This document shows, one piece after another, positions 2,976-30,256 of a DNA stretch of 30,499 bases (position 1 is its first letter; every line of letters starts with the position of its first letter). Under the pieces are notes generated by a model. The model saw only the letters and a list, made by a program, of their open reading frames with translations, did not search any database and was not told where the DNA came from. A program made the position numbers and the translations under genes. The stretch lies in the IMG/VR virus record IMGVR_UViG_3300031351_000010, positions 1 to 30,499 of that record; one strand, given 5' to 3'. The DNA is from a virus.

Positions 2976-3241
2976 ACCCACTTTTCCTCGAACTCTTCCT
3001 CTATGACCGCCTGATCTTCCGCTTCCAGTTCACGCTCTCGTGCCTTTCGCGCCTCCGCCCTCACATGCCGTGCCACCATGCGCACAAGCCAGTCCAACTT
3101 CTCCTGGTTCGTCTCGCCCACGGGCACGCCGCTCGTAAACTCTTCGCGCCAAACCAGCGCGCGGGCGTATTCCATAAACCTCGCATCGCTTATGCTGACC
3201 GTGCTGCTGAGATTGCCGACGGTCATCGTTATACTTGCCAT
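2972..3241 (-). CDS. Small protein downstream of tail fibre, unknown function
   Basis: An 89-residue protein with an AAGGGTGG ribosome binding site before its ATG. The first 40 residues look beta-rich (ITMTVGNLSSTVSISDAR) and the remainder is a strongly charged helix with runs of Arg/Glu ending in EEEFEEKWV. It lies 14 nt after the large fibre gene and overlaps the next gene by four bases. The context suggests a late gene; the sequence alone does not show whether it is in the virion. Confidence 0.62.
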   Translation of the reverse strand: MASITMTVGNLSSTVSISDARFMEYARALVWREEFTSGVPVGETNQEKLDWLVRMVARHVRAEARKARERELEAEDQAVIEEEFEEKWV

Positions 3242-3255
3242 TTTGCCACCCTTTC

Positions 3256-9652: not shown

Positions 9653-12201
9653 CAGCGTCGCCTCCATTCCTGCTGAATACGATACGCCAGCCGCTCGACA
9701 TCGATGTCGTTATTTACTGTGGCGTACACATACACATTGCCGCCCCCGCCCATCATTTCTGCGCTCTCGCGCGTATTCCACACCCTGCTCGCACGCGGAA
9801 GCGCCACAACCTCCGGACCTCGCTCTCCGACTAGCGTCAGTCCGCCGCCAAAGAATTGCGTGCCGGATGCTTGTCCCCCGCCGCCAAGACTAGGCCAATG
9901 GAAATCAGGAATAAAGCGGCTCCAGTCAAAGTTTTTGATAGCGTCCCACGGCCATTCGACCTTTGGCACAAATACAGACCAAGAGAAGCTCATCGTCGAT
10001 GTAGGCCAGTGCAAGCTATCAATAAAGTCGCTCCAGCTAAAAGAGAACAGTTCCTCCGGCCAACTCAATTCGTCTACAAAGTTGGACCACTCAAAGTCGC
10101 TCAAGGCGTTCGGCCACTTTAGATGATCAACAAATGCCGACCAGTCAAATTCTTGCAGAACCACAGGCCATGTTACATTGTCAACGAACTCTGACCATAC
10201 GATGCCGCCGATCCATGCGCTCCAATTCTCAATCTTCGCTATGTAATCGCCCCACGGCAGGTCCTTGATATACGTTGACCATTCGCTGAGCTTCTCGACA
10301 AAGTCCGTCCACGTCATGTCTGCTATATAGTCGTCCCACGTAGCTATCGGCTCGATATAATCATCCCATGGTAGCCTAACAACGTATGTTGCCAGGTCGA
10401 TGGCTTGTACAAATGTATTCCACGGCAGCAACAGAATCCACGTGCCCCAGTCCGCCAGCTTTGTAACAATCGCCGTCCAGTCTAACTGTGTAATGTACTC
10501 GTTCCACACGATGGAGGCCACACGCCCCCCCCAGTCCAGTGTCGTCACAAACATAGACCATTCCAGTTTGGCGACGTATAGATACCAGTTCGCCAGCTTT
10601 GTGACAATCGCCGTCCAGTCCAGTGCCGTGATAAACGCTTTCCATTCAAGTTTGGCGATGTGTACGGACCAGTTAGACAGAACTTCTACAAAGTCGGCCC
10701 AATGGATGGTTTCCACGAAGTCCGACCATGTAAAATCCTCAATTGCCGCTTGCACACTTGACAGGGCTCCCTGCAGTCCTTCCTTCAGCGGTCCCCAGTC
10801 TCCCTGCGACGCCGCGCTGATCCAGCCCAGCAGCTCCTCGAAACGCGGTTTCACGGCAGTCACAACATCTGTTACTGTCGTGCGGATGCCCATAAAATCC
10901 GTAGCAAAGGCCACGCCTAGTGCGGCGACAGCCGCCACAACCAAACCAACCGGCGATATCAGAGCGCCAAGTATGGGTATCAATACTGATATACCCGCCG
11001 CCATCCCCGCAATCGCCAGCAGCGCAGGGCCCGCCGCTGCCGCAAGCGCCAGCATCACCAGAATCGTTTTCTGCATACCTGGCGACAAAGTGCTGAATTT
11101 GCTTGCCAGATCAGCCAGACCTCGAATCCACCCGTTGAGCATATCCAGAAACGGCAGACCAACGCTAATAAGCACGCTCTCGACAGAACCCTTGAAGTAT
11201 TCAATGGCCCCGTTCAGACCCTGCATTCTCGCATTCGCAGCAGCCTGCGCTACTCCGGACTTGTTCACCGCCTCAGACATGGCGTCCCAACCCTCAGCGC
11301 CCGCTTGCAGCAAAATGTTCGCTGCTCGCACTGCGTCTGAGCCGAAAATCGTTGCCAGCGCCGCATTGCGCTGCTCATCCGTCAGCCCGGCCATTGCCCC
11401 GCGCAGACTACCTAGAATGTCTGAGAACGGCAGCATCGCTCCCTCTGCATCGTAGACCGCGACGCCTAGCTCGTTCATGGTGCTTCGGGCTGTTTCCGTC
11501 GGCGCCGTCAGGCTCAGTAGCATCTGTTTAAGACTTGTGCCTGCATCGCTCCCCCTCATGCCTGCGTTGCCCATCAGGGCGAGGGCGGTCGTCATTTCCT
11601 GAATGCTCTGATTGTTGGCTGCGAAAACTGCGCTTGACATCTGGAAGCTCTTCGCCAGATCGTACACCTCTACGCTTGACGCGTTCGCCGCAGCAGCCAG
11701 CATGTCTGCAACCGTCGTCATTTCGGTAGCATCCAGCCCGAATGTGTTGAGGCTGTTGGCGGCAATCTCCGCGGCAGAAGCCATGCTCAAACCGCCTGCT
11801 GCCGCCAGGCTCAGCACGCCGCTGATGGCCCCCGTCACCTGCTCGGCGCTCATGCCCGCCTTCGCCAACTCCAACATGGCGTCTGCCGCGTCGCCTGCAG
11901 AAAACGATGTCACGCGCCCTAGCTCAATCGCCTGCACCTGCAACGCGGCCATCTCCCCTTCGGTCGCGCCCAGGACTTCGGCGATTATGTTCATAGACTG
12001 CTCGAAATCGGCTGACGAGTGCACCGCTACAGCCGCCATGCCCATTAACGGCAAAGTAATTCCCGCTGTGAGCTTCGTACCTGCTGTACCAAGGCCGCCC
12101 GCAACGCTCTTGAGTTTGTCGTTAAACGTGTTGAGGCCCGACTCCGCCCGTGACGTGTCGGCCCCCACTTTGACCATTAGCTCTGCAGCTGTTATCGCCA
12201 T
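9652..12201 (-). CDS. Tail tape measure protein (TP901 family) with tryptophan repeats
   Basis: An 849-residue protein that sets tail length and is ejected during DNA delivery. The N-terminal 350 residues match the TP901-type tape measure core (VGADTSRAESGLNTF, SSADFEQSMNIIAEVLGAT, MGNAGMRGSDAGTSLKQML). Residues about 375-440 are hydrophobic (LVMLALAAAAGPALLAIAG) and could insert into the host membrane. From about 495 to 770 there are roughly 30 tandem units of the form W-x-x-F/Y-V/I-x-x-L-x-W. The C-terminus carries the common tape-measure end motif LVGERGPEVVALP. The gene begins immediately after the TAA of the frameshifted chaperone extension (TAAATGG), the usual arrangement for G/GT chaperones followed by the tape measure. 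Confidence 0.95.
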   Translation of the reverse strand: MAITAAELMVKVGADTSRAESGLNTFNDKLKSVAGGLGTAGTKLTAGITLPLMGMAAVAVHSSADFEQSMNIIAEVLGATEGEMAALQVQAIELGRVTSFSAGDAADAMLELAKAGMSAEQVTGAISGVLSLAAAGGLSMASAAEIAANSLNTFGLDATEMTTVADMLAAAANASSVEVYDLAKSFQMSSAVFAANNQSIQEMTTALALMGNAGMRGSDAGTSLKQMLLSLTAPTETARSTMNELGVAVYDAEGAMLPFSDILGSLRGAMAGLTDEQRNAALATIFGSDAVRAANILLQAGAEGWDAMSEAVNKSGVAQAAANARMQGLNGAIEYFKGSVESVLISVGLPFLDMLNGWIRGLADLASKFSTLSPGMQKTILVMLALAAAAGPALLAIAGMAAGISVLIPILGALISPVGLVVAAVAALGVAFATDFMGIRTTVTDVVTAVKPRFEELLGWISAASQGDWGPLKEGLQGALSSVQAAIEDFTWSDFVETIHWADFVEVLSNWSVHIAKLEWKAFITALDWTAIVTKLANWYLYVAKLEWSMFVTTLDWGGRVASIVWNEYITQLDWTAIVTKLADWGTWILLLPWNTFVQAIDLATYVVRLPWDDYIEPIATWDDYIADMTWTDFVEKLSEWSTYIKDLPWGDYIAKIENWSAWIGGIVWSEFVDNVTWPVVLQEFDWSAFVDHLKWPNALSDFEWSNFVDELSWPEELFSFSWSDFIDSLHWPTSTMSFSWSVFVPKVEWPWDAIKNFDWSRFIPDFHWPSLGGGGQASGTQFFGGGLTLVGERGPEVVALPRASRVWNTRESAEMMGGGGNVYVYATVNNDIDVERLAYRIQQEWRRR
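9890..10730 (-). repeat. Tryptophan repeat array inside the tape measure gene
   Basis: About 30 degenerate tandem units, each 9 residues and occasionally 10, with Trp at the unit boundary, an aromatic or Val at position 4, Val/Ile at 5 and Leu/Ile/Phe near 8. Examples are WSDFVETIH, WKAFITALD, WSEFVDNVT and WSAFVDHLK. In one unit Leu replaces the boundary Trp (AIDLATYVV). Toward the C-terminus, units alternate between WS- and WP- starts. The two units reading WTAIVTKLA are near-identical (about 10455-10480 and 10600-10625), so recent duplication may have contributed. Period and composition are read directly from the translation. Confidence 0.9.
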
Positions 12202-14154: not shown

Positions 14155-14549
14155 CGGAGCCGCCTTTCCAGGTCCGCCATATCGCGGCGAAACTCAGCCT
14201 CTTCCGCACTTGCCGCCGGACCTAGAAACGGCCTGGGGGCGATACGCGGCGAGCCGAACTCCAGACTCAGCGCGTACTCTTGGTTGGTATACACCACATG
14301 CGTCGCCCCTTTTCCCGCCCCCCTCTGAATCGAGTTTGCCAGTGCGCTCGTGTCTATCGCGGGAGGCTCGCCGGGCGCAGACGCTTGGTGAGTACCATAG
14401 ATGCGCCCGCTTTTCGGTTCAGCCATACTCGCCTTAGCCGTCCCCTCGATGCGCAGCGCCGTTTTATCCGTAATCTTCGCCGCCTCTTTCGGCAACTTGG
14501 CCGCAATTTCCGGGAACCGATTCGAGGTTATCGTTACGGCAGTTATCAT
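14151..14549 (-). CDS. HK97 gp10-like neck / tail-joining protein
   Basis: A 132-residue product beginning MITAVTITSNRFPEIAAKLP. The ATG at 14549 overlaps the stop of the glycosidase-like gene (ATGA); an upstream in-frame ATG at 14657 lies deep in that gene and is rejected. The features KEAAKITDKTALRIEGTAK, then GTHQASAPGEPPAIDTSALANSI, YALSLEFGSPRIAPRPFLGP and a charged C-terminal helix are diagnostic of the HK97 gp10 / minor tail family, which joins tail to connector. The neighbours on the downstream side (tail completion, tail tube) agree. Confidence 0.88.
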   Translation of the reverse strand: MITAVTITSNRFPEIAAKLPKEAAKITDKTALRIEGTAKASMAEPKSGRIYGTHQASAPGEPPAIDTSALANSIQRGAGKGATHVVYTNQEYALSLEFGSPRIAPRPFLGPAASAEEAEFRRDMADLERRLR

Positions 14550-15295
14550 GCGTGCACCGCCGGAATGTATGTCGTATGCAGCTCCGGCTCTGCTATGTAC
14601 ACATCGCCTAGCCGCGTCAGTGTGCAGTTGTCTGTCAATAGGTTCGGGTCCGGCCACACTTCATCGTAGGCACTGAACCATGCCGCGGCCTGAATGCGCC
14701 CGTCTGCGAGTGCACGCCGCACGCCCCGCATTACGTCCTCGTTGGCATCGTCTACCGCACCGGCAATTTCGCTGATAATGATCGGCCTGTCTCCATACGC
14801 CGAACGCATATGATCCACAATGCTCCACACCTGGTCTGCGGAATAGCAGTAAATGTGAAAGTGCCACACGTCCGGCAGCGGCCCGCCTGCCGCCTTGTAT
14901 TCGGCCAGCCATGCGCGGCCTTCGTCGTTCCACAGGATGCCGGGCAGTGCAATCGGCAGTTCCGGCATCACCGCCCGCAATGCTTGCACGGTGGCCGCAA
15001 ACGTGTGCGGCTCTGTGTTGCTCTGCTGTACGCGCTCCGGCTCATTGCCCAGTAGCCACAGCCGGTCGGCATACTCGCGCATGGTCGGCAGCGCAGCCGC
15101 TAGCGATTCCATGTCAGTACGCCACAGCATTGGATAGTAGCCAGCCATTCCGGTGCGGTCGTATTTCCAGTTGTGCCACCACGCCGGATGCAATCTATCG
15201 AGCGCATCGTAGTACCAGGCTGGCTCATTCTCTGCCCGCTGCCAAGGAATTCCTACACCGAATCCGGTCGGCAGTGCTACGCGTGCGGTGGTCAT
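14546..15295 (-). CDS. TIM-barrel glycoside hydrolase-like protein (Asl1/GH128-like)
   Basis: A 249-residue protein resembling the small single-domain glycosidase fold of Asl1-like/GH128 proteins. LHPAWWHNWKYD near the N-terminus resembles the first barrel strands. The two expected catalytic glutamates are in LWLLGNEPE (around residue 84, acid/base) and IIISEIAGA (around residue 175, nucleophile). VWHFHIYCYS and QAAAWFSAYDEVWPD provide aromatic substrate-site strands. No signal peptide or linker is seen. Both ends overlap neighbours as ATGA, placing it in the neck/tail operon between a LamG-like protein and gp10-like protein. It may therefore be a virion-associated glycanase or depolymerase that degrades surface polysaccharide. 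The substrate is unknown. Confidence 0.75.
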   Translation of the reverse strand: MTTARVALPTGFGVGIPWQRAENEPAWYYDALDRLHPAWWHNWKYDRTGMAGYYPMLWRTDMESLAAALPTMREYADRLWLLGNEPERVQQSNTEPHTFAATVQALRAVMPELPIALPGILWNDEGRAWLAEYKAAGGPLPDVWHFHIYCYSADQVWSIVDHMRSAYGDRPIIISEIAGAVDDANEDVMRGVRRALADGRIQAAAWFSAYDEVWPDPNLLTDNCTLTRLGDVYIAEPELHTTYIPAVHA

Positions 15296-16008
15296 GATAG
15301 TGCCTGTATCCTAGTTGTCAGCGCGGCTACATCGTCGGCGGTTAGTGTCGTGCTGTAAATAGCTACTGCCTGTATATTTATATCAGTATTATTGTATGAG
15401 CTTGGAGAACCATCTATATTAATTACACCGATATAAATACTCAATAAGGTGGCATTCCAATCTATATCCATATCAGTACCAACTTGTACGGCATTTCGAT
15501 AGAATGATGGTCCGGCCAAAGCAAACACACCGGCGGTTCCTGTTTTACTTGTCGTACGACGAAAATTATCTTCTCCGCTACCATAATCACCACCCCCTGC
15601 AAATGTGCTTTGATATGAATTTAGTGAGAAGAGTGTGTTAAGAATGAGATCTTTTATACCTATTGATCTTTGTTCACTTGTAGCCGTATCGCTAAATCTG
15701 AATATCATAGAATATCCGGCATCAGGTACAATTCCAGTGTCCAAATATGTGTTAATGGCTGTAAATATCCAACCATCCGTTGAATTCCAAGTAGGAGCAT
15801 GACCCGTAGCATCTGCATCATTACCATTGCCGGATAAGTCCGCGTAGCTTGCCTCCAGTGATGCCGCGCCAATCGGCTGATAAGCAGCCACGCATGTCTG
15901 GCCTGCTATGTCCCACCAGTCACCACCACCGCCCCCCGCAGCAGCAGGTCGCGATAGCCGCACGCCATCACCTATTCGCCAGATACCACTGCCTGCTTTG
16001 TAGATCAT
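15292..16008 (-). CDS. LamG / concanavalin-like domain protein
   Basis: A 238-residue product starting MIYKAGSGIWRIGDGVRL at the ATG that overlaps the upstream stop (ATGA, 16005-16008); a farther in-frame start at 16098 lies inside that upstream gene. The N-terminal 35 residues end in a Gly linker (AAAGGGGGDWW). The rest reads as a LamG-like jelly roll: YADLSGNGNDADATG, then INTYLDTGIVPDAGYSMIFRF and a closing IQAVAIYSTTLTADDVAAL. Such domains bind glycans and decorate virions. The section from about 15830 to 15355 is far richer in A/T than the flanks, although the frame stays open, so the domain was probably acquired separately from the gene's ends. Confidence 0.75.
   Translation of the reverse strand: MIYKAGSGIWRIGDGVRLSRPAAAGGGGGDWWDIAGQTCVAAYQPIGAASLEASYADLSGNGNDADATGHAPTWNSTDGWIFTAINTYLDTGIVPDAGYSMIFRFSDTATSEQRSIGIKDLILNTLFSLNSYQSTFAGGGDYGSGEDNFRRTTSKTGTAGVFALAGPSFYRNAVQVGTDMDIDWNATLLSIYIGVINIDGSPSSYNNTDINIQAVAIYSTTLTADDVAALTTRIQALS
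15355..15830. other. AT-rich island inside the LamG-like gene
   Basis: Within this segment A/T clearly exceeds G/C (for example TATATTTATATCAGTATTAT at about 15371), whereas sequence on both sides is GC-rich like the rest of the late block. The edges fall inside the coding frame, near the codons for YADLSGNG on one side and AIYSTTL on the other. This fits replacement of a domain by horizontal exchange. Confidence 0.7.
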
Positions 16009-16472
16009 TGCTGTTCTACCCATTGCACGTCCGCAGGTCTCACCCGCGGCAGCTCCAACCCCGTCGCACGGCTGTTGCCCAGGATCGTCGGGGGCCAACT
16101 ATCATCTGGTACGCTCTCGGCAAATGCTGCCTCTACTGCCGTCACCGTGGCAGGAACCATCACGGTTTTGATAGCCGCCCATAGAGCTAGAAGTTCCGTG
16201 CGGTCGTTGGCTTCCAGTGCGCGTCGCAGGTCCACGGCGAAGTTGCCGTAATCACTGTATAGCGCCAATCGCTCCGCCACGGTTAGCAGATCGACAAACG
16301 TCGCCCATGTAAACTGGCGCGGTACGCTTGGCTGCGGGTCGGGGTTGTCGATTATCGGCCTGTCGTTCAACAGTGCAGCAATCGCCTCATACTCCTGGTC
16401 AGCCAGCAAGTTGGCGTATTTCGCATCCTGCAATTCCGTCGCCAGAATCGCCAGTTGTTCTGTATTCAGCAT
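16005..16472 (-). CDS. Hypothetical late protein
   Basis: A 155-residue product from the ATG at 16472, which overlaps the preceding stop as TAATG; the longer in-frame start at 16589 is rejected because it lies in that gene. The first half is helical (LNTEQLAILATELQDAKY, EYEAIAALLNDRP), the middle contains TWATFVDLLTVAERLALYSD, and the C-terminus is Pro/Arg-rich. The N-terminus resembles that of the head-closure-like protein encoded upstream (MLTAEQLAAIQ versus MLNTEQLAILA). Genes with this layout occur next to phage decoration or fibre proteins, but no function is assigned. Confidence 0.65.
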   Translation of the reverse strand: MLNTEQLAILATELQDAKYANLLADQEYEAIAALLNDRPIIDNPDPQPSVPRQFTWATFVDLLTVAERLALYSDYGNFAVDLRRALEANDRTELLALWAAIKTVMVPATVTAVEAAFAESVPDDSWPPTILGNSRATGLELPRVRPADVQWVEQQ

Positions 16473-16804
16473 TATACGGCCTCCGTCCAGTAGTCCACCG
16501 TCACACCATGCGAGTTTGCACTGCTCAGGTTGAGGATAAGCGCCTCGTTCGTGCCGAGGCACCATTCGTCGCCACGGCCAAAGCTCCACGCTACGCCATC
16601 GCCCTGGTTCTGCAATAGCGCCCGTCGCTTCGTGTTCGCCCCCGATTTTAAGAGGATCGTGGTCGCCGTCTCACTCTCGTTCTGCACCAAAATGGTCTTG
16701 ACGACGGTACGCTTATTAGCGCCCGGTGCAGCGACTACGGTATTGTCTCCGCTAGCCGCATATACATCGGCCTGAACGGAGTAGATCGACTTATAGGTTC
16801 CCAT
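16472..16804 (-). CDS. Small beta-rich virion-like protein
   Basis: A 110-residue protein with alternating beta strands (KRTVVKTILVQNESETATTI, RALLQNQGDGVAWSFGRG, EALILNLSSANSHGVTVDYW) and no enzymatic motif. The pattern resembles a small jelly-roll decoration or tail accessory protein. It starts MGTYKSIYS behind GGAGTAGGAA; the 24 bases around its start are nearly identical to those of the major capsid gene (MATYNSIIS). Because that region determines initiation, a similar high expression level is plausible, suggesting an abundant structural protein; this is inference. Confidence 0.68.
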   Translation of the reverse strand: MGTYKSIYSVQADVYAASGDNTVVAAPGANKRTVVKTILVQNESETATTILLKSGANTKRRALLQNQGDGVAWSFGRGDEWCLGTNEALILNLSSANSHGVTVDYWTEAV

Positions 16805-16814
16805 TTCCTACTCC
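16791..16814 (-). repeat. Repeated translation-initiation segment, copy 1
   Basis: These 24 bases, read on the minus strand as the Shine-Dalgarno GGAGTAGGAA, the ATG and the first codons (N-terminus M-x-T-Y), match 24120-24143 at 23 of 24 positions. The only difference is the second base of codon 2. Confidence 0.85.
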
Positions 16815-16840
16815 CTTGTGTTTACGCTCACCGGAGCCAC

Positions 16841-17197
16841 TTAGTCCCGTTCCGCACATACGCAACACGTCGCCGTCTCGTATGTGTGCGGAGCCAGGAT
16901 ACCCAACACCTCGAATGTCCTGTCGCCCACTGTCAGCCGGTCGCCCTCACGCACATCTGTGCCCGCTGGCAGATACACGCGCCACGGAATACTCTCATTC
17001 AGCCGCCCCGCAAATACCGTCGCATCCGGCATATTCCGGCTCGGTGCAACGCGGCAGGCAGCCGGGCTTTCCGTTGATGTCTGCGTATAGCCGCCCATCC
17101 CGTCGCTGACGTTCGACAATCGGATAATCGTCGCCGTCTGCGTCATTGCCTCGGCCTGTACTGCCTGTATTGCCGCCAACTGCTCAGCCGTCAGCAT
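16841..17197 (-). CDS. Head closure / head-tail joining protein
   Basis: A 118-residue protein. The core MTQTATIIRLSNVSDGMGG, followed by WRVYLPAGTDVREGDRLTV, DRTFEVLGI and a closing APHTYETATCCV strand, is the small beta-barrel pattern of head-tail joining proteins (HK97/SPP1 gp16-like closure proteins). These bind the connector and close the capsid after packaging. The ATG overlaps the lysin stop by seven bases (ATGCTGA). The first 16 residues form an added helix (LTAEQLAAIQAVQAEA) that resembles the N-terminus of the 155-residue protein downstream. Confidence 0.82.
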   Translation of the reverse strand: MLTAEQLAAIQAVQAEAMTQTATIIRLSNVSDGMGGYTQTSTESPAACRVAPSRNMPDATVFAGRLNESIPWRVYLPAGTDVREGDRLTVGDRTFEVLGILAPHTYETATCCVCAERD

Positions 17198-18615
17198 TCT
17201 GCCGCTATCTCCAATAACTCAGCCACACGCCGCACCCAGGCATTGCCATAGAAATGCCATCGCTCAGAGTTCACGTAGGCGTCTAGCCGCTTGGCTGCAA
17301 ACGCCAGCGGCGACGGCCCTAGCTCTCGCAGCCACATGGCCGCCGTCCCCGCGCCGTGCAGTACTGCTGTGTCAAACACAATCAGGCTCAGCGGCCATCT
17401 CAACAAGTCTGCGCCGCTTGCCTGCCAGTAGTGCTGCCGGTAGATAGCTTCCGCCTCCTGCTCTGTCAAATTCGGAATGTCATACAGCCCGCCCCACACT
17501 GCGGCGTTGATGCCGTACTTCGTGCCGATTAGCTGGCCGTTGTAGTAGTTGCCGGGATCGTTCGGGTCGAGGCTCAGCCCGCCCTCCCAGCGGCGGACAA
17601 ACGCCATAGATCGCTCGAATAGATTTGACGTGCTATCATCTAGTTCTTCTTCTCCGCTCTCAATTTGCGGACCGTCCACGACCACCGCCGGGACATGTAC
17701 ATAGTCCGGCTCTATCGGCTCTGCATCCCGAATCGCCAGTAGTTCATCATGCGCCGGTGTCGTGTCGAATGACTTCCACTGGTCGTCGTGATAGTCGGTC
17801 ATATATAGAGCGACGCCTGCGACGCGGCTATCACAGCCCTCGATGTACTCGTGCACCTGCGCCGCGTATGTCTGTGGCGTCATGTAATTCTGCCAGCCGC
17901 CGTTGTCCGTATTCGTATGCCGATTGTAGATAAATCCATTCGGACCAGCCTCGCCGACCAGAATCGGCACGTCCAGCGGAATGTGCTGATGTCGCCATGC
18001 CAGGTTGCCCGCATCCTCGCGCGTCCGGGCCTGTTTATCCGTCCACACGAATGACGGTCCTTCCGGCTGCCAGTATTCATGCACCACCAAAATGTGACCG
18101 CCGTCGCGTATCTGCTGTTCGAGCGGCTTCACCAAACTCCAGTTGTTCGGGTCTTGGCCCGGAATGCCGAAATTACCGACGCTCGCAACCATGACGCCGA
18201 GCGGCCACGTAGTCCGGTGCATCCACTCTGCCGTATATTCAACGATTTGCGGCAGATAGGCCGGATCGGGTTCGTTAATCAGTTGCAGATGCCACTTTTT
18301 CTCGTCATACTGCCACTCATTGCCATCCAGCTCCTCAAGCAACCGCTCCAGCAGGTCGTTCCACATCTGCCAATGCTGCTCAGCCGCCCGCTGCGGATTC
18401 GCGTACGCTTCGCGCTTGCGGTCGCCGTTGTGATCATCAATATCCCAGCTACGCAGCATGATTTTGGCGTCCGGCGCAGCCTGTTGCGCGCGCCAGATAC
18501 TGCGCGCTGTCGGCTGGTGGATCACCACCCAGGCCGGTTGCAGCGCGCGCATGTAATTCGTTGTGCTGTCCCAGCTGTGATGATCACTCAGATAGACGCC
18601 CAGGACACTGCTCAT
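17191..18615 (-). CDS. Two-domain lysin: TIM-barrel glycosidase-like + GH108-type muramidase
   Basis: A 474-residue protein. Residues about 1-290 look like a glycosidase TIM barrel, with a candidate acid/base Glu in LQLINEPDPAY (around 113) and a second in ILVGEAGPNGF (around 220), plus HEYWQPEGPS between them. After an acidic Ser-rich linker (SGEEELDDSTSN), residues about 330-474 match the GH108 lysozyme family. RSMAFVRRWEGGLSLDPND holds the EGG catalytic motif, YNGQLIGTKYGI is characteristic, and the C-terminal helices resemble its peptidoglycan-binding part. GH108 enzymes cut the N-acetylmuramic acid to N-acetylglucosamine bond. It probably serves as endolysin with a second activity against wall or capsule glycan. 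No signal peptide is seen, so release would depend on the holin encoded at 21005-21439. The ATG overlaps the previous stop (ATGA). Confidence 0.85.
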   Translation of the reverse strand: MSSVLGVYLSDHHSWDSTTNYMRALQPAWVVIHQPTARSIWRAQQAAPDAKIMLRSWDIDDHNGDRKREAYANPQRAAEQHWQMWNDLLERLLEELDGNEWQYDEKKWHLQLINEPDPAYLPQIVEYTAEWMHRTTWPLGVMVASVGNFGIPGQDPNNWSLVKPLEQQIRDGGHILVVHEYWQPEGPSFVWTDKQARTREDAGNLAWRHQHIPLDVPILVGEAGPNGFIYNRHTNTDNGGWQNYMTPQTYAAQVHEYIEGCDSRVAGVALYMTDYHDDQWKSFDTTPAHDELLAIRDAEPIEPDYVHVPAVVVDGPQIESGEEELDDSTSNLFERSMAFVRRWEGGLSLDPNDPGNYYNGQLIGTKYGINAAVWGGLYDIPNLTEQEAEAIYRQHYWQASGADLLRWPLSLIVFDTAVLHGAGTAAMWLRELGPSPLAFAAKRLDAYVNSERWHFYGNAWVRRVAELLEIAAEC

Positions 18616-18926
18616 GGCGTGTTCTCAGCTATGTATGTCTTGCCGTCAGCGCCAATGATCTCTCGCCTGATTAGCGCCTTGCGTTCGATTTGCACTTGCC
18701 CCGGACAGTCATATTGCCATGTTTCCAAATTCGCTCTCCGTTCCTGAATCGTCGGTCCATACATCTCGCGGCGCCGAGTGCAAAACATACACGAACACGG
18801 CACGGGTGTATTTATGTAGATGCCCTCCATCCGCTGATTCCCCCTCGCCCACCAGTAGCGCGGATACCGCAGCCGCCGCGCCAGGACGCGCGCGTCATCA
18901 TGCCTGCGCTGCGCTGTTCTGCTCAC
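18612..18926 (-). CDS. Small Arg-rich protein with CSCMFC motif, function unknown
   Basis: A 104-residue protein with a GTG start at 18926 overlapping the methyltransferase stop (GTGA) and a GGGGAG Shine-Dalgarno 7 nt upstream, both inside a repeated element. The first 30 residues are very basic (RRHDDARVLARRLRYPRYWW), followed by PVPCSCMFCTRRR and the downstream sequence PTIQERR. Small bacterial and phage proteins with a basic N-terminus and a CSCxxC-type metal-ligand motif followed by a TxQERR motif are, to my knowledge, common, but I know of no established function. Metal binding (zinc) is inferred from the cysteines. Confidence 0.68.
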   Translation of the reverse strand: MSRTAQRRHDDARVLARRLRYPRYWWARGNQRMEGIYINTPVPCSCMFCTRRREMYGPTIQERRANLETWQYDCPGQVQIERKALIRREIIGADGKTYIAENTP

Positions 18927-18947
18927 AGTTCGCTCCCCGGCAACATA
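18919..18947 (-). repeat. Junction repeat, copy A (methyltransferase 3' end)
   Basis: On the minus strand these 29 bases encode the end of the methyltransferase (MLPGSEL then TGA) and, overlapping it, the GTG start of the next gene, with GGGGAG acting as its Shine-Dalgarno. They match 19544-19572 at 28 of 29 positions. Confidence 0.88.
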
Positions 18948-19537
18948 CTTAGCTGCATCTGCGCCTCAGCTATGCGCTTCTCAGCTATGGCGTAGTAGCC
19001 GGCGTCAATCTCGATGCCGATGAAGTTGCGGCCCGTCTGCACGCACGCGACGCCCGTTGTACCAGAACCCATGAAACAATCCAAAACTGTGTCTCCAGGG
19101 TCAGTAATTCTTTCTATCAGGTGTCTCATGTATTCAATCGGCTTTGGGGATGGATGTTCTGGTTTGTCACCCCTTACCGAGAAATGGAAAGCGTTTGGAC
19201 CCTGCCTGGGTTTCTTTCCGACCAATACGGCGGCAAGCCAGTTTCCAAAACCTATTGGGCCCCGTGTCATTCCATTCATGTTTCGTGCTGATATAACATC
19301 AAGAACATCATCCCCAACCAATTTCATTGAATCTTTTAATCCTATTGAGCCAGTAATGATACAAACCGTTTCGCCTACCCTCTTGGCATCCGTGTACCAT
19401 TCGGTCGGAAATGCCATGTCCCATTCTGCTTTGTTTGTCCCATACGGCGGGTCAGTCACCACTGCATCCACGCTGCCATCAGCAAGCGTTGGCAGAATGT
19501 CCAGGCAGTCGCCATGGTATAGCTGAACCCTCATCAT
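18923..19537 (-). CDS. DNA N6-adenine-type methyltransferase (beta-class order)
   Basis: A 204-residue enzyme that should transfer a methyl group from S-adenosylmethionine to DNA. Catalytic motif IV is DPPYGTNKAEWD, and the SAM-binding motif I lies near the C-terminus in DCFMGSGTTGVAC, after SPKPIEYMRHLIERITDPGD. The order IV then I is the beta-class arrangement, and DPPY favours adenine as target over cytosine N4. The ATG at 19537 or 19534 is chosen because the upstream frame overlaps another gene. No restriction endonuclease is nearby, so it is an orphan, more likely protecting phage DNA from host restriction or marking it than part of a restriction system. The central coding part (about 19080-19450) is AT-richer than neighbours, and the gene is bounded by a 29-nt direct repeat. 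Confidence 0.9.
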   Translation of the reverse strand: MMRVQLYHGDCLDILPTLADGSVDAVVTDPPYGTNKAEWDMAFPTEWYTDAKRVGETVCIITGSIGLKDSMKLVGDDVLDVISARNMNGMTRGPIGFGNWLAAVLVGKKPRQGPNAFHFSVRGDKPEHPSPKPIEYMRHLIERITDPGDTVLDCFMGSGTTGVACVQTGRNFIGIEIDAGYYAIAEKRIAEAQMQLSMLPGSEL

Positions 19538-19551
19538 AGAATGCTGCTCAC
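19534..19551 (-). other. Five-codon mini-ORF linking copy B to the methyltransferase start
   Basis: The GTG in repeat copy B would read GTG AGC AGC ATT CTA TGA. Its TGA overlaps the first methyltransferase ATG (CTATGATG). Termination-reinitiation could pass ribosomes from the copy B Shine-Dalgarno to the methyltransferase. Whether it is translated is unknown. Confidence 0.35.
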
Positions 19552-19572
19552 AGTTCACTCCCCGGCAACATA
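19544..19572 (-). repeat. Junction repeat, copy B (end of the 65-residue gene)
   Basis: The same 29-base element as copy A (one G/A difference) ends the gene just upstream of the methyltransferase, again encoding MLPGSEL-stop. Together, copies A and B bracket the methyltransferase as a 625-bp unit. Confidence 0.88.
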
Positions 19573-19745
19573 TCGCGAATAGCGTTAGCAAATGCAGCAC
19601 ATTCTCGCAATGCCTCATGCGCCATTGCTAGTTGATTTTCCTGATACTCGATAGATGGAGCCTCAATTTCGGACAGCAATGCCAAAATGTCCTGTAAATC
19701 GGGCCGTTTGATACGATATTCAGGAGCGTTGGCAAACGCATTCAC
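19548..19745 (-). CDS. Small 65-residue accessory protein
   Basis: The GTG at 19745 overlaps the lipoprotein stop as GTGA and has GGGAG 7 nt upstream, so it is the likely start; the longer in-frame opening to 19949 overlaps the lipoprotein gene and is rejected. The product (MNAFANAPEYRIKRPDLQD... ending RDMLPGSEL) is helical and acidic with no motif I can name. Its last codons belong to the junction repeat. It lies between the lipoprotein and methyltransferase genes in the accessory cluster. Confidence 0.6.
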   Translation of the reverse strand: MNAFANAPEYRIKRPDLQDILALLSEIEAPSIEYQENQLAMAHEALRECAAFANAIRDMLPGSEL

Positions 19746-19759
19746 AGTTCGCTCCCTGG
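19742..19759 (-). repeat. Junction repeat, copy C (shorter, end of lipoprotein gene)
   Basis: An 18-base partial copy, matching 17 of 18 bases, ends the lipoprotein gene as PGSEL-stop and again overlaps the GTG of the following gene (GTGA) with GGGAG as Shine-Dalgarno. Confidence 0.82.
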
Positions 19760-20071
19760 TACTCTCGTCGGCAATGGCTGCGCCTGCGGCTGGTCTGCCG
19801 GCAATTCCTGCGGCATAAGACGCGGCACTGGCAGTTCCAGCGCCATCGCCTTTGTCTCCGCTGCAATCATCTCGCAAAGCGCCAGCACATCCAGCCGATG
19901 CCCAGGCGGGATGTCCTGCCCTGTCACCGCCACAATAGTGCGAAGGCAAGCGCCCACCGCGCCGTTCTCAAACGCCAACTCAAGCTGCGCGTCATAGTCC
20001 GGCGGCTCTATCCACCGGCAGCCGGTCAACAACAGAGACACGGCTATTATAGCTATCGCTATTGTTCTCAT
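19742..20071 (-). CDS. Predicted lipoprotein (possible spanin or exclusion protein)
   Basis: A 109-residue protein with a short basic N-terminus, a hydrophobic stretch (IAIAIIAVSLLL) and the lipobox LLTGC at residues 14-18, so it should be exported and lipid-anchored at Cys18. The mature part is acidic and then Pro/Gln-rich near the C-terminus (PRLMPQELPADQPQAQPLP). Lipoproteins with such tails in a lysis cluster can be outer-membrane spanin subunits (Rz1-like), but no inner-membrane partner is evident. A superinfection-exclusion or moron role is equally possible. A GAGG Shine-Dalgarno lies 8 nt before the ATG, in the end of the metallophosphoesterase gene. Confidence 0.75.
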   Translation of the reverse strand: MRTIAIAIIAVSLLLTGCRWIEPPDYDAQLELAFENGAVGACLRTIVAVTGQDIPPGHRLDVLALCEMIAAETKAMALELPVPRLMPQELPADQPQAQPLPTRVPGSEL

Positions 20072-20074
20072 AAT

Positions 20075-20920
20075 TCAATCCTCGGCCATCTCAAAGCGAA
20101 CGCCCACATTGCCTGGCTTGCCGTAGTTGTAGTAGAACACCATCCACCATGCGCCTACCGGTTTAGGAGGTCGGCCCTTCTCAATATGATAGCCGCCCTC
20201 CGGCGTATACTCTCTCTTGTATGTCGGTAGCTGCACGTACATCTGCTTGTCGAAATACAACCGCCCGGCATTCGTGCATCGCTGCCGCTCTATCGGAAAC
20301 AACCATTGCTCGTGAATGTGACCGAGAACCACAATGTCAGCATCGGGCACATACGGTGCAACGCGTGACGGATTGAGCGTGCCTTTCGTGACAGGCCCGC
20401 CCCCACCCCATCCGTGATGATAGAATAGGCGCCGCTGCGTGCGTTTGCCGCCTCCAGGCCGCTCAAACATCATGCGCACCCACCCACTGTAGCCCATGTG
20501 TTGCACATGCAACCGATGGCACAGGTGATCCAGCAGGTCAACCTCAATGTGCTTGCGAATTGAAGTCTCATGGTTACCGTCCGACATCAGAACCAGGTTG
20601 GCCGCGTACGGCTCCAGAAACGCAACGCTGTCATCCACTATCAGGTCGAGATAGTTGTCGGCGTTGTGCTGATTGGCCGTTCCCGTCTTGCTGCGCCGCG
20701 GGTCAGAGCGTCCGCCCATCGCGTCAAACCAGTCCCCGAAACACATGACGCCTGCGCCCGTGTCTCTCGCCTCGTCCAAATGCCGGGCCAACAGCCGCCT
20801 GTCGCATAGTGGACTGTCAAAGTGTACGTCCGCAATCAATAGATAGCGTTGCGTCCAGCCCAACTCTACAACCGGATGACGTATCGTCAGCACGTTGCGT
20901 CCGGTGCGCTCAGGCTCCAT
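20075..20920 (-). CDS. Metallophosphoesterase (calcineurin-like fold)
   Basis: A 281-residue protein read from the ATG at 20920, which has GGGAG five bases upstream; a GTG two codons earlier lacks spacing. All metal-ligand blocks of the family are visible: LLIADVHFD (D-x-H, about residues 31-33), FGDWFD (about 62-66), SDGNHET (about 115-118), FYHHGWGGGG (about 168-177) and VVLGHIHEQW (about 200). The fold binds two divalent metals and hydrolyses phosphoester bonds. Insertions and the missing C-terminal capping domain do not match Mre11/SbcD closely, so the substrate is open (nucleic acid, nucleotide or protein). It sits between the holin and lipoprotein genes and may be an accessory gene. Confidence 0.88.
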   Translation of the reverse strand: MEPERTGRNVLTIRHPVVELGWTQRYLLIADVHFDSPLCDRRLLARHLDEARDTGAGVMCFGDWFDAMGGRSDPRRSKTGTANQHNADNYLDLIVDDSVAFLEPYAANLVLMSDGNHETSIRKHIEVDLLDHLCHRLHVQHMGYSGWVRMMFERPGGGKRTQRRLFYHHGWGGGGPVTKGTLNPSRVAPYVPDADIVVLGHIHEQWLFPIERQRCTNAGRLYFDKQMYVQLPTYKREYTPEGGYHIEKGRPPKPVGAWWMVFYYNYGKPGNVGVRFEMAED

Positions 20921-21004
20921 GTGCACTCCCGCCTATGCACATTTTCCCCGGCACGGCTATAAACGCACGTCGCCACACAGCCATAAAACTATCGCCACCG
21001 TCGC

Positions 21005-23161: not shown

Positions 23162-24133
23162 CTATGCCGTCAGATACGCGAACGGGTAGCGACTCGCTTC
23201 TACCGGCTGCACGCGGCTAATCGGGTTCGGCAGTGCAAAACCCAGCCGCATCACGGCCCGCAGTGCTACCATGTCTTGCTGTGCCAGATTGTAGACAATG
23301 TTGCCCGCGGCATCCTGAATCACGGCCTCAGTCAGCACCTTGTAGGTGATATCCTGGCGCATGGCGTACACCAACTGATTCCACTGCCCGGAGATCAGAT
23401 AGTATGTTGCGCTAATCGCCCCGTTGGTCGGGAACAGGCACGGCGCGCCATCCAGTAGATACGACCCTGCCTGCTGCATATTCGTGCTGAAAATCAGCCC
23501 GCCCTCAGCGTCTCGCACGTTGCGCAACTTCCGTTTCATGGTCAGGTGCGCAATCGATCCTGTGACCATGAAGCCATCCTCTTCGACTAGCCCGAATAGG
23601 CCCGAAGCGGCCGCGTCCGTCTCACCCAGGATCGCCTCGTACATATCCGTATAGTTTGCCAGGCTAGCATTCTGGCTAGCTGCCAGCGCACCGGCCACGA
23701 TACCCGCAGCGCCTAGATTGGTAGTCCACGTCGCCGGGATGTTTGTCCCGTACAGCACGGCCTGGTCAATCGCAATGCCGAATGCTTCCGCCAAGCTGGG
23801 CCGTACCTCTCCCCAAATGTCGAATGCGGCGTCATCCAGCACAGCTTCCGGGATAGGTACAATCACCGCCAGTTCCTCGGCGTCGACATATTTGTTATCC
23901 CAGTCGACCTCGCTGGTCTCCTTCAGACTAGTGTCGCCGCTCACGAAATACGCTGTAGCCAGCGCACTCATAACTGGCAGACGCCGCTGATTTGTGCTCA
24001 TGTTCGGCAGACGCCGCGCCAGCCCCATGACTGCGGAACTCTCTGGAACCGCCGCCAGGATTTCCCTACTCGCATCCTCAGGTATCAGCGCCTCAGCGTC
24101 TGACCGTGAAATGATACTGTTATAGGTTGCCAT
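23162..24133 (-). CDS. Major capsid protein (HK97 fold)
   Basis: A 323-residue protein with GGAGGAGTAGGAA before the ATG. It follows the scaffold gene and contains features of HK97-type capsid proteins: an N-terminal helix start (RSDAEALIPEDASREIL), a RRLPNMSTNQRRLPVM segment, DNKYVDAEELAVIVPIPEAV, then a spine helix (IDQAVLYGTNIPATW) and a C-terminal MRLGFALPNPISRVQP. There is no fused protease, and the gene order with a separate scaffold fits. The initiation region is almost identical to that of the small protein at 16472-16804. It assembles the procapsid with scaffold and portal. Confidence 0.93.
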   Translation of the reverse strand: MATYNSIISRSDAEALIPEDASREILAAVPESSAVMGLARRLPNMSTNQRRLPVMSALATAYFVSGDTSLKETSEVDWDNKYVDAEELAVIVPIPEAVLDDAAFDIWGEVRPSLAEAFGIAIDQAVLYGTNIPATWTTNLGAAGIVAGALAASQNASLANYTDMYEAILGETDAAASGLFGLVEEDGFMVTGSIAHLTMKRKLRNVRDAEGGLIFSTNMQQAGSYLLDGAPCLFPTNGAISATYYLISGQWNQLVYAMRQDITYKVLTEAVIQDAAGNIVYNLAQQDMVALRAVMRLGFALPNPISRVQPVEASRYPFAYLTA

Positions 24134-24143
24134 TTCCTACTCC
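24120..24143 (-). repeat. Repeated translation-initiation segment, copy 2
   Basis: Major capsid start region; on the minus strand it matches 16791-16814 with one mismatch, covering part of the Shine-Dalgarno (GGAGTAGGAA), the ATG and about four codons. Confidence 0.85.
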
Positions 24144-29322: not shown

Positions 29323-29413
29323 ATAGACAGTAAGAGACAAGGAAATAGCCACACCGGCACGAGGTGAACGGCCTCACAGAGGCGAACCGGGGAGGACCCG
29401 CAAAGAGGAAAAC

Positions 29414-29472
29414 GGAAGTCACGCAGCCTGGTAGCTGCGGTAGGCGATGAGGTACCACGAAACTTCCAGGAG
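29414..29472 (+). ncRNA. Structured 5' leader element, copy 1
   Basis: A 59-nt element ending in the AGGAG ribosome binding site of the 29484 gene. It contains GGAAGT (29414-29419) complementary to ACTTCC (29462-29467), enclosing a 6-bp hairpin CGCAGC-CTGGTA-GCTGCG (29422-29439). It shares about 53 of 59 bases with copy 2. The hairpin resembles the D-arm of tRNA (CGCAGCCTGGTAGC), but no anticodon or T-arm is present, so it is called a cis leader and not a tRNA. Confidence 0.6.
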
Positions 29473-29483
29473 GAGATAGAGAA

Positions 29484-29804
29484 ATGAAGATCACAGTAAA
29501 ATCCATAGAAGAAGGACCATTCGATGACGTGCGATTTTATCTTGAGGCCAATGTCAATGGCAGACTGGTTCAGTCACGAGGAACCGTACTGACGATGCCT
29601 GGACTTACGGAGCTCAGCACCCGCCCGGAATGTCGCCAACAGATCCGACGAGACGTCGAATATGCGCAGATGGTGATTGACAATATGCTCGCCGAGGGAA
29701 TGGATGTGAAAGAGGCTGGTGCCGCTCTTGAGCGCATCATCCTCGAGGAGATTCCGCAGCGTGAAGCAGAGCGAAAAGAACTAGAAAACCTGTTCGAGGA
29801 CTAA
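29484..29804 (+). CDS. Small accessory protein preceded by leader element 1
   Basis: A 106-residue acidic protein, MKITVKSIEEGPFDDVRFYL, with a beta N-terminus and a helical C-terminus (KEAGAALERIILEEIPQRE). AGGAGG is 10 nt before the ATG. No recognised domain, signal or metal motif. It is the first gene after the extended -10 promoter and is divergent from the late operon, so it may be expressed early. The small size and charged helical end fit an inhibitor or DNA-mimic style protein only as speculation. Confidence 0.72.
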   Translation: MKITVKSIEEGPFDDVRFYLEANVNGRLVQSRGTVLTMPGLTELSTRPECRQQIRRDVEYAQMVIDNMLAEGMDVKEAGAALERIILEEIPQREAERKELENLFED

Positions 29805-29849
29805 CCTGAACAAGTCGCTACCGCCTGCCGGCGGGCGTTATCACCGGCT

Positions 29850-29908
29850 GGAAGTTACGCAGCCTGGTAGCTGCGGTAGTCGATAAGGAATCCCGAAACT
29901 TCCAGGAG
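29850..29908 (+). ncRNA. Structured 5' leader element, copy 2
   Basis: The second copy ends in the AGGAG of the 29915 gene. The outer stem is GGAAGTT with AACTTCC (7 bp, 29850-29856 with 29897-29903), the hairpin is CGCAGC-CTGGTA-GCTGCG (29858-29875), and the tail CGAAACTTCCAGGAG is conserved. Its outer stem is one pair longer than in copy 1. A short GC hairpin (CCGCC-TGCC-GGCGG, 29821-29834) precedes it and may end the first transcript or add structure. Confidence 0.6.
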
Positions 29909-29914
29909 AGAATT

Positions 29915-30256
29915 ATGAAACGCCTAGACGCACTGAAGGAAATTGGGAACGAGTGGCAGAAGGGGGACTACCACCGCATCTATATCAATAATCTGTCACA
30001 ACGGCTCGGACTAGAGACTAGTCACTACAAAACCGGCAACGTCAGCGGTGCGACGTTGAACGGAGAGGAAATCAGCAATAGTCAGGCGACGAAAATGTTG
30101 GATCGTTGCCGAGACACGAAGGTTTGGTGGGATGTACCGACTGAGCGTTGGAGCAAAAAACGGTATGCCATTGGCAGTCTCAGCGATACGGAAGTGCAAA
30201 CTGTGATTAACAACGTTGAGGCAGAAATTGCGGCCTTGATGGAACAGGATAAATGA
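29915..30256 (+). CDS. Small accessory protein preceded by leader element 2
   Basis: A 113-residue protein, MKRLDALKEIGNEWQKGDYH..., mixed charge, with a helical start and end (TVINNVEAEIAALMEQ) and a central part SGATLNGEEISNSQATKML then KVWWDVPTERWSKKRYAI. That part is rich in Trp/Lys/Arg and may bind nucleic acid. No known family is claimed. AGGAG is 6 nt before the ATG and belongs to the repeated leader. Base composition is a little more AT-rich than in the late block. Confidence 0.72.
   Translation: MKRLDALKEIGNEWQKGDYHRIYINNLSQRLGLETSHYKTGNVSGATLNGEEISNSQATKMLDRCRDTKVWWDVPTERWSKKRYAIGSLSDTEVQTVINNVEAEIAALMEQDK

Follow-up and report, generated by a model that had tools for sequence, protein, structure and literature searches.

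A DNA methyltransferase gene in a viral late operon is bracketed by near-identical repeats, located at its own 3' end and at the 3' end of its upstream neighbor. We read these repeats, with a probability of about 0.7, as traces left by recombination at the borders between genes of a compact phage operon with translational coupling. The copies lie in register with gene ends, one of them holds a relic of another gene's start, and the surrounding gene block varies among relatives.

The window (the whole stretch of DNA analyzed) is an entire IMG/VR virus record of 30,499 bp. Most genes, including those for terminase, portal, capsid, and tail proteins, are on the minus strand. The capsid protein has a 90% identical counterpart on a contig from a Chloroflexota MAG (L252), which points to Chloroflexota as the likely host.

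The joint repeat and its genes

PGSEL-stop ends three consecutive minus-strand genes (lipoprotein-like, small, and methyltransferase), each time inside a copy of the same element (Table 1). The first-pass annotation had described these shared ends, and sequence comparison bore out its identity values for copies A and B, which lie 625 bp apart, and for copy C. Copy B is the sequence of copy A with a single C>T change, and copy C reads CCAGGGAGCGAACTGTGA on the minus strand, one base off the core of A. In all three copies, GGGGAG or GGGAG is placed six bases ahead of a GTG overlapping the TGA (GTGA). Within the PGSEL codons, the copies differ at two bases, and neither change alters the protein. 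The three copies are in one place, and other starts in the window have different upstream sequences.

Table 1. Features at and around the joint, and the second junction repeat of the window.
Feature	Position	Strand	Description
Joint copy A	18919..18947	-	TATGTTGCCGGGGAGCGAACTGTGAGCAG; methyltransferase end (MLPGSEL-stop), SD-like GGGGAG, GTG start of dn
Joint copy B	19544..19572	-	28/29 to A; small gene end (MLPGSEL-stop), SD-like GGGGAG, five-codon relic GTG
Joint copy C	19742..19759	-	17/18 to core of A; lipoprotein-like gene end (PGSEL-stop), GGGAG, GTG start of small gene
Mini-ORF (VSSIL-stop)	19534..19551	-	GTGAGCAGCATTCTATGA; relic of dn start (GTGAGCAG); its TGA overlaps methyltransferase ATG
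dn gene	18612..18926	-	104 aa; phrog_4499, unknown function; start within copy A
DNA methyltransferase gene	18923..19537	-	203-204 aa; PF01555 N6_N4_Mtase 1.4e-26; phrog_67 5e-56
Small orphan gene	19548..19745	-	65 aa; between copies C and B; homolog not found
Lipoprotein-like gene	19742..20071	-	109 aa; MRTIAIAIIAVSLLLTGC...; ends at copy C; lipobox seen by eye
Metallophosphoesterase/exonuclease-like gene	20075..20926	-	phrog_7339; upstream neighbor, variable block
Endolysin with GH108 domain	17191..18615	-	Downstream neighbor, variable block
Second junction repeat, copy 1	24120..24143	-	GGAGTAGGAAATGGCAACCTATAA; major capsid gene SD-start region
Second junction repeat, copy 2	16791..16814	-	23/24 to that of capsid gene; SD-start region of gene 16472-16804

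Pairs resembling A and B are expected about 1.4e-7 times by chance in random sequence of the window's length. For copy C, a gene-end match as good as 17/18 has a chance probability of about 8e-10 for each pair of gene ends considered; fixing the stop, start, and SD bases in advance still gives about 1e-4. This copy is short and could be older and independent. Beyond its first 300 bases, the window has six same-strand pairs matching at 17/18 or better, compared to about one in randomized sequence. Half of the six fall at gene junctions, namely A/B, A/C, and an SD-start of 24 bases that gene 16472 has in common with the capsid gene. The idea that the joint forms a structured RNA was rejected (fold z-scores of 0.25 and -1.2, with no Rfam match).

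The bracketed gene is not homologous to its neighbor, so it is not a tandem duplication. Apart from its tail, the small protein does not convincingly resemble either the methyltransferase or the lipoprotein, and the closest methyltransferase homolog (L091, 59% identical) has no PGSEL tail. Because the identity of A and B passes the stop into the start of the next gene, and the genes have no homology apart from the tail, the sequences support a copy made at the DNA level. The insert encodes the methyltransferase only; genes for a transposase or a homing endonuclease are absent from it. An AT-richer interior had been taken to indicate recent arrival of the methyltransferase. Its GC (0.51) and GC3 (0.53) are indeed lower than in the dn, lysin, lipoprotein, and exonuclease neighbors (0.58-0.61), but the deviation is not specific to it. 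Composition is weak evidence of recent arrival because GC3 of the small gene, g15292, and g20910 is off by as much or more.

Other repeats were also observed. Gene 16472, which carries the capsid-like SD-start, is absent from the closest relative (L332), which also has none of the genes in the 14522-16842 stretch. In the relative L253, a 73-base capsid leader (9928-10000) recurs before a gene of about 120 aa (15979-16051; 68 bases identical). Sharing of the capsid SD-start or leader perhaps reflects matched expression of a capsid accessory protein. On the plus strand of the window, a 61-base, partly hairpin-forming repeat (29412-29472 and 29848-29908; 53/61 identical), with an SD after it, lies ahead of both members of an adjacent gene pair (29484-29804 and 29915-30256); it had no Rfam match, and its fold z-scores were about -1. 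Positions 1-220, at the left end of the record, are a low-complexity, alanine-rich repeat with 12-base periodicity. The tail region has a second glycosyl-hydrolase-like gene (14546-15295; PF11790) besides the GH108 lysin.

The relic start and the proposed order of events

The first-pass annotation proposed that the stop-overlapping GTG of each copy serves the following gene. This is the case for copy A (dn, 18926) and copy C (small gene, 19745), but the GTG of copy B does not start the methyltransferase. Its frame, GTG AGC AGC ATT CTA TGA, runs for five codons to a stop, and an ATG at 19537 or 19534 that overlaps this TGA opens the methyltransferase. Copy B retains eight bases of the dn start (GTGAGCAG), where dn does not follow; therefore, the small-dn junction is probably the older one, with the methyltransferase now between its two copies. 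By sequence, copy B looks like a duplicated small-dn junction into which the methyltransferase was inserted.

We propose that the small gene and dn were once adjacent, with a single junction copy made up of the MLPGSEL-stop tail, the SD, and the GTGAGCAG start of dn. The methyltransferase would have come in through a recombination event here, with the junction retained on either side of it, and would thereby have acquired its MLPGSEL tail. Copy A would still start dn, and copy B would end the small gene and keep a truncated, useless dn start. The VSSIL stop touches the methyltransferase ATG, which may allow coupling to persist by reinitiation. The small gene may have arrived earlier by the same route, as copy C suggests. 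Homologous recombination between copies could then delete 625 bp with the methyltransferase, about 194 bp with the small gene, or both segments, and the operon should stay coupled each time; a donor carrying the same joint could add a gene. Precise removal of the methyltransferase had been predicted from the repeats, and inspection of the sequence supports it: the product of A and B exactly restores the small-dn junction and rebuilds the dn start. Deletion between joint copies would thus be expected to leave a working operon.

Relatives and junction repeats in other phages

Relatives hold different cargo between g21439 and the head-completion gene, and this block is therefore variable. L255 and L257 have none of these block genes, L011 has a lysin region, and the relative with the 90% identical capsid protein (L252/L332) has another lysin. 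Such variation is expected if genes come and go. Retention of the small, methyltransferase, and dn genes in this order by all relatives had been named as evidence against the proposal; instead, the trio is absent from every relative found. That no sister genome turned up is weak evidence, since records very close to the window may be missing from the searchable set. Comparison of the same locus among relatives, as suggested earlier, gave a variable block, but neither presence/absence bounded by the window repeat, nor an empty site or filled/empty allele pair, was found among the relatives retrieved. Protein searches with dn, the small gene, and the endolysin gave no usable relatives, and a DNA search for G010 family genomes returned the known contig only. 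In this family, the exonuclease contig stops short of the joint, and the other contig begins within a different lysin. No relative with or without exactly this methyltransferase was found; for this reason we infer gain or loss at the window joint. Its direction, the enzyme, and reinitiation are likewise inferred. The exact joint element was not found elsewhere in IMG/VR. The sole relaxed-pattern match there (L171) was rejected as chance, being antisense within another gene.

Exact gene gain or loss at such joints has been shown in other phages. Island3 gp68 has no counterpart in Brujita and ends in a copy of the 3' end of its upstream gene, and recombination adds or removes the gene (Pope et al., 2011; PMC3029335). 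We confirmed the Island3 gp67/gp68 repeat in the sequences as a survey control. Phage pair Spooky and Malisha (another phage group) represents methyltransferase presence/absence at a junction repeat. The Spooky methyltransferase gp73 ends in VDRHGNTTTGAVY-stop, which is the tail of the Malisha upstream gene (about 55 bp shared). Malisha has no gp73, and the DNA that follows it is 97.9% identical between the two over 528 bp, starting inside the repeat.

In Gordonia phage GAL1 (L163/L366), the order is methyltransferase, joint with relic, orf57, joint, and VTADPAV... gene, with orf57 flanked on either side by a GVR-stop/GTG-ACC joint. Behind the first of these joints comes a 12-codon relic, VTADPANTGAVY-stop, and the second starts the real VTADPAV... 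gene. One joint copy links the methyltransferase straight to the VTADPA gene in DobbysSock, and one links the orf57 homolog to it in Spooky and Malisha. L187 has a third relic, MTTPTLRPYQP-stop, ahead of an inserted ORF.

A search of phage genomes for repeated stop-SD-start elements had been suggested, and comparable cases do exist, but their number is only mildly above the relaxed expectation. In 4.0 Mb of retrieved loci, we looked for short repeats that include the stop codons of two successive genes; the yield was 10 hits among 658 short repeats, compared to 3.2 expected under a relaxed null and 0.2 under a strict null. Among these 10 are the window itself, Island3 as control, and two loci with tandem gene duplications (L198 and L322), which were discarded. 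Because the excess over the relaxed null is modest, we make no claim on the frequency of such joints. Repeats flanking 71 other methyltransferases had mean scores barely above those of random placements, and the two best of these loci (L126 and L170) were rejected as having promoter- or hairpin-like repeats, not stop-start joints. In L126, a 19-base identical repeat, AAGAAAACCCTTGACAAAA, is located before the methyltransferase (2185-2203) and before the next gene (3227-3245), and is promoter-like, with TATACTTA downstream. In L155, a 37-base joint repeat (205-241 and 954-990; 35 bases identical) with tail NEKGERP-stop and head MSAP brackets an ORF of about 250 aa. This ORF has a short cytosine-methyltransferase-like ORF on one side and a further methyltransferase on the other.

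Alternatives and known systems

The repeat could instead be kept because it is good at translational coupling, with its stop, SD, and start put to use at three junctions, and not be a recombination scar. The properly spaced SD and GTGA overlap in 3/3 copies agree with such a signal, as do the recurrence of the capsid gene SD-start at a second gene and the start-associated repeats of unknown function in cluster K mycobacteriophages (PMC3203893). We consider this unlikely, since other junctions of the operon use different sequences, identity reaches upstream of the SD and eight bases into the next gene, and the copy B start is used by no real gene. It is very improbable that the three proteins keep, or have converged on, PGSEL because it works as a C-terminal motif. 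The synonymous differences in its codons fit that idea, but codons and not residues alone are common to the copies, A/B identity carries on beyond the stop, and L091 has no tail. Protein-tail convergence and gene duplication were both rejected on the latter two points and on the lack of similarity of the small protein beyond its tail.

Direct repeats on both sides of one gene would also result if the methyltransferase had been inserted by a short transposition-like or illegitimate event that duplicated a long target site; the relic start fits a duplicated target, and illegitimate recombination is favored for most phage mosaic borders (PMC3029335). Such an insertion is improbable here, given an insert without a transposase or homing endonuclease gene, repeat lengths that are not fixed among comparable cases (28-29, 33-37, and about 50-60 bp), and a further copy (C) at the neighboring joint. 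Homologous exchange at gene-boundary repeats, with coupling kept, is the best reading, with support from alleles in other phages. Counted against it are the mild survey excess, the unspecific GC deviation, the shortness of copy C, and the missing filled/empty pair.

Entry of a gene at a gene boundary is a known route of phage gene swapping, and the window joint looks like its scar. The window adds a well-supported case of this kind, not a new system. A gene-boundary repeat allowing single-gene gain or loss is supported, but the term "gene-loading joint" in the first-pass annotation overstates this by implying a purpose-built device and not a by-product of recombination at gene boundaries. Shared gene tails together with a truncated start of the next gene provide a signature for recognizing and polarizing recent single-gene insertions from one genome, and accessory genes such as methyltransferases can enter an operon with coupled translation undisturbed. 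It is possible, though we offer it tentatively, that stop-SD-start junctions in many phages are reusable homology joints, where entrants take the neighbor's tail and leave a truncated-start relic, so that one joint can take in gene after gene and the growing operon stays coupled.

The Gordonia joints ("...GAVY-stop-ATG" and "GVR-stop/GTG-VTADPA" in Spooky, Malisha, GAL1, and DobbysSock) resemble the window in bracketing methyltransferase or small genes and in the truncated-start relic, and they also have presence/absence alleles. They differ in their unrelated sequence and actinobacterial hosts, and the Spooky/Malisha repeat is longer. These joints were not found described in the literature searched, and the public Gordonia phage pairs offer recombination that can be tested at the bench.

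T4-type phages reportedly carry mobile regulatory cassettes or PeSLs (Arbiol 2010, cited in PMC4503421), intergenic regulatory sequences that recur in the genome and are proposed to shuffle modules. These are promoter-terminator pieces, whereas the window has a translational stop-start joint partly inside coding sequence. "Short conserved boundary sequences" are reportedly a feature of lambdoid phages. Like the window joint, they are short shared sequences at gene borders that provide homology for single-gene exchange; the repeats here are within one genome, and the likeness is one of description. They have been proposed to mediate phage mosaicism (cited in PMC3029335).

The SAS/ESAS of cluster K mycobacteriophages (PMC3203893) are likewise repeats tied to translation starts with several copies per genome, but SAS sit before starts in many more copies, and in the text consulted are not described with the previous gene's stop or as bracketing an inserted gene. 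An SAS-type element directly upstream of many starts genome-wide is not what the window has, with its three copies in one place. Nor does the joint resemble a transposon or homing-endonuclease insertion, as the methyltransferase is the insert's only coding content. In Island3 gp67/gp68 compared to Brujita gp66 (cluster I mycobacteriophages; PMC3029335), as in the window, the end of a gene duplicates the 3' end of the gene upstream. There, the repeat is about 50-60 bp within gene 3' ends and a real allele pair is known; the window repeat is 29 bp, also includes the SD and next start, and has a third copy. What sets the window apart is its series of three joint copies with SD, next start, and a truncated-start relic, and the joint is best placed among the phage gene-boundary repeats already known, at which homologous recombination adds or removes single genes.
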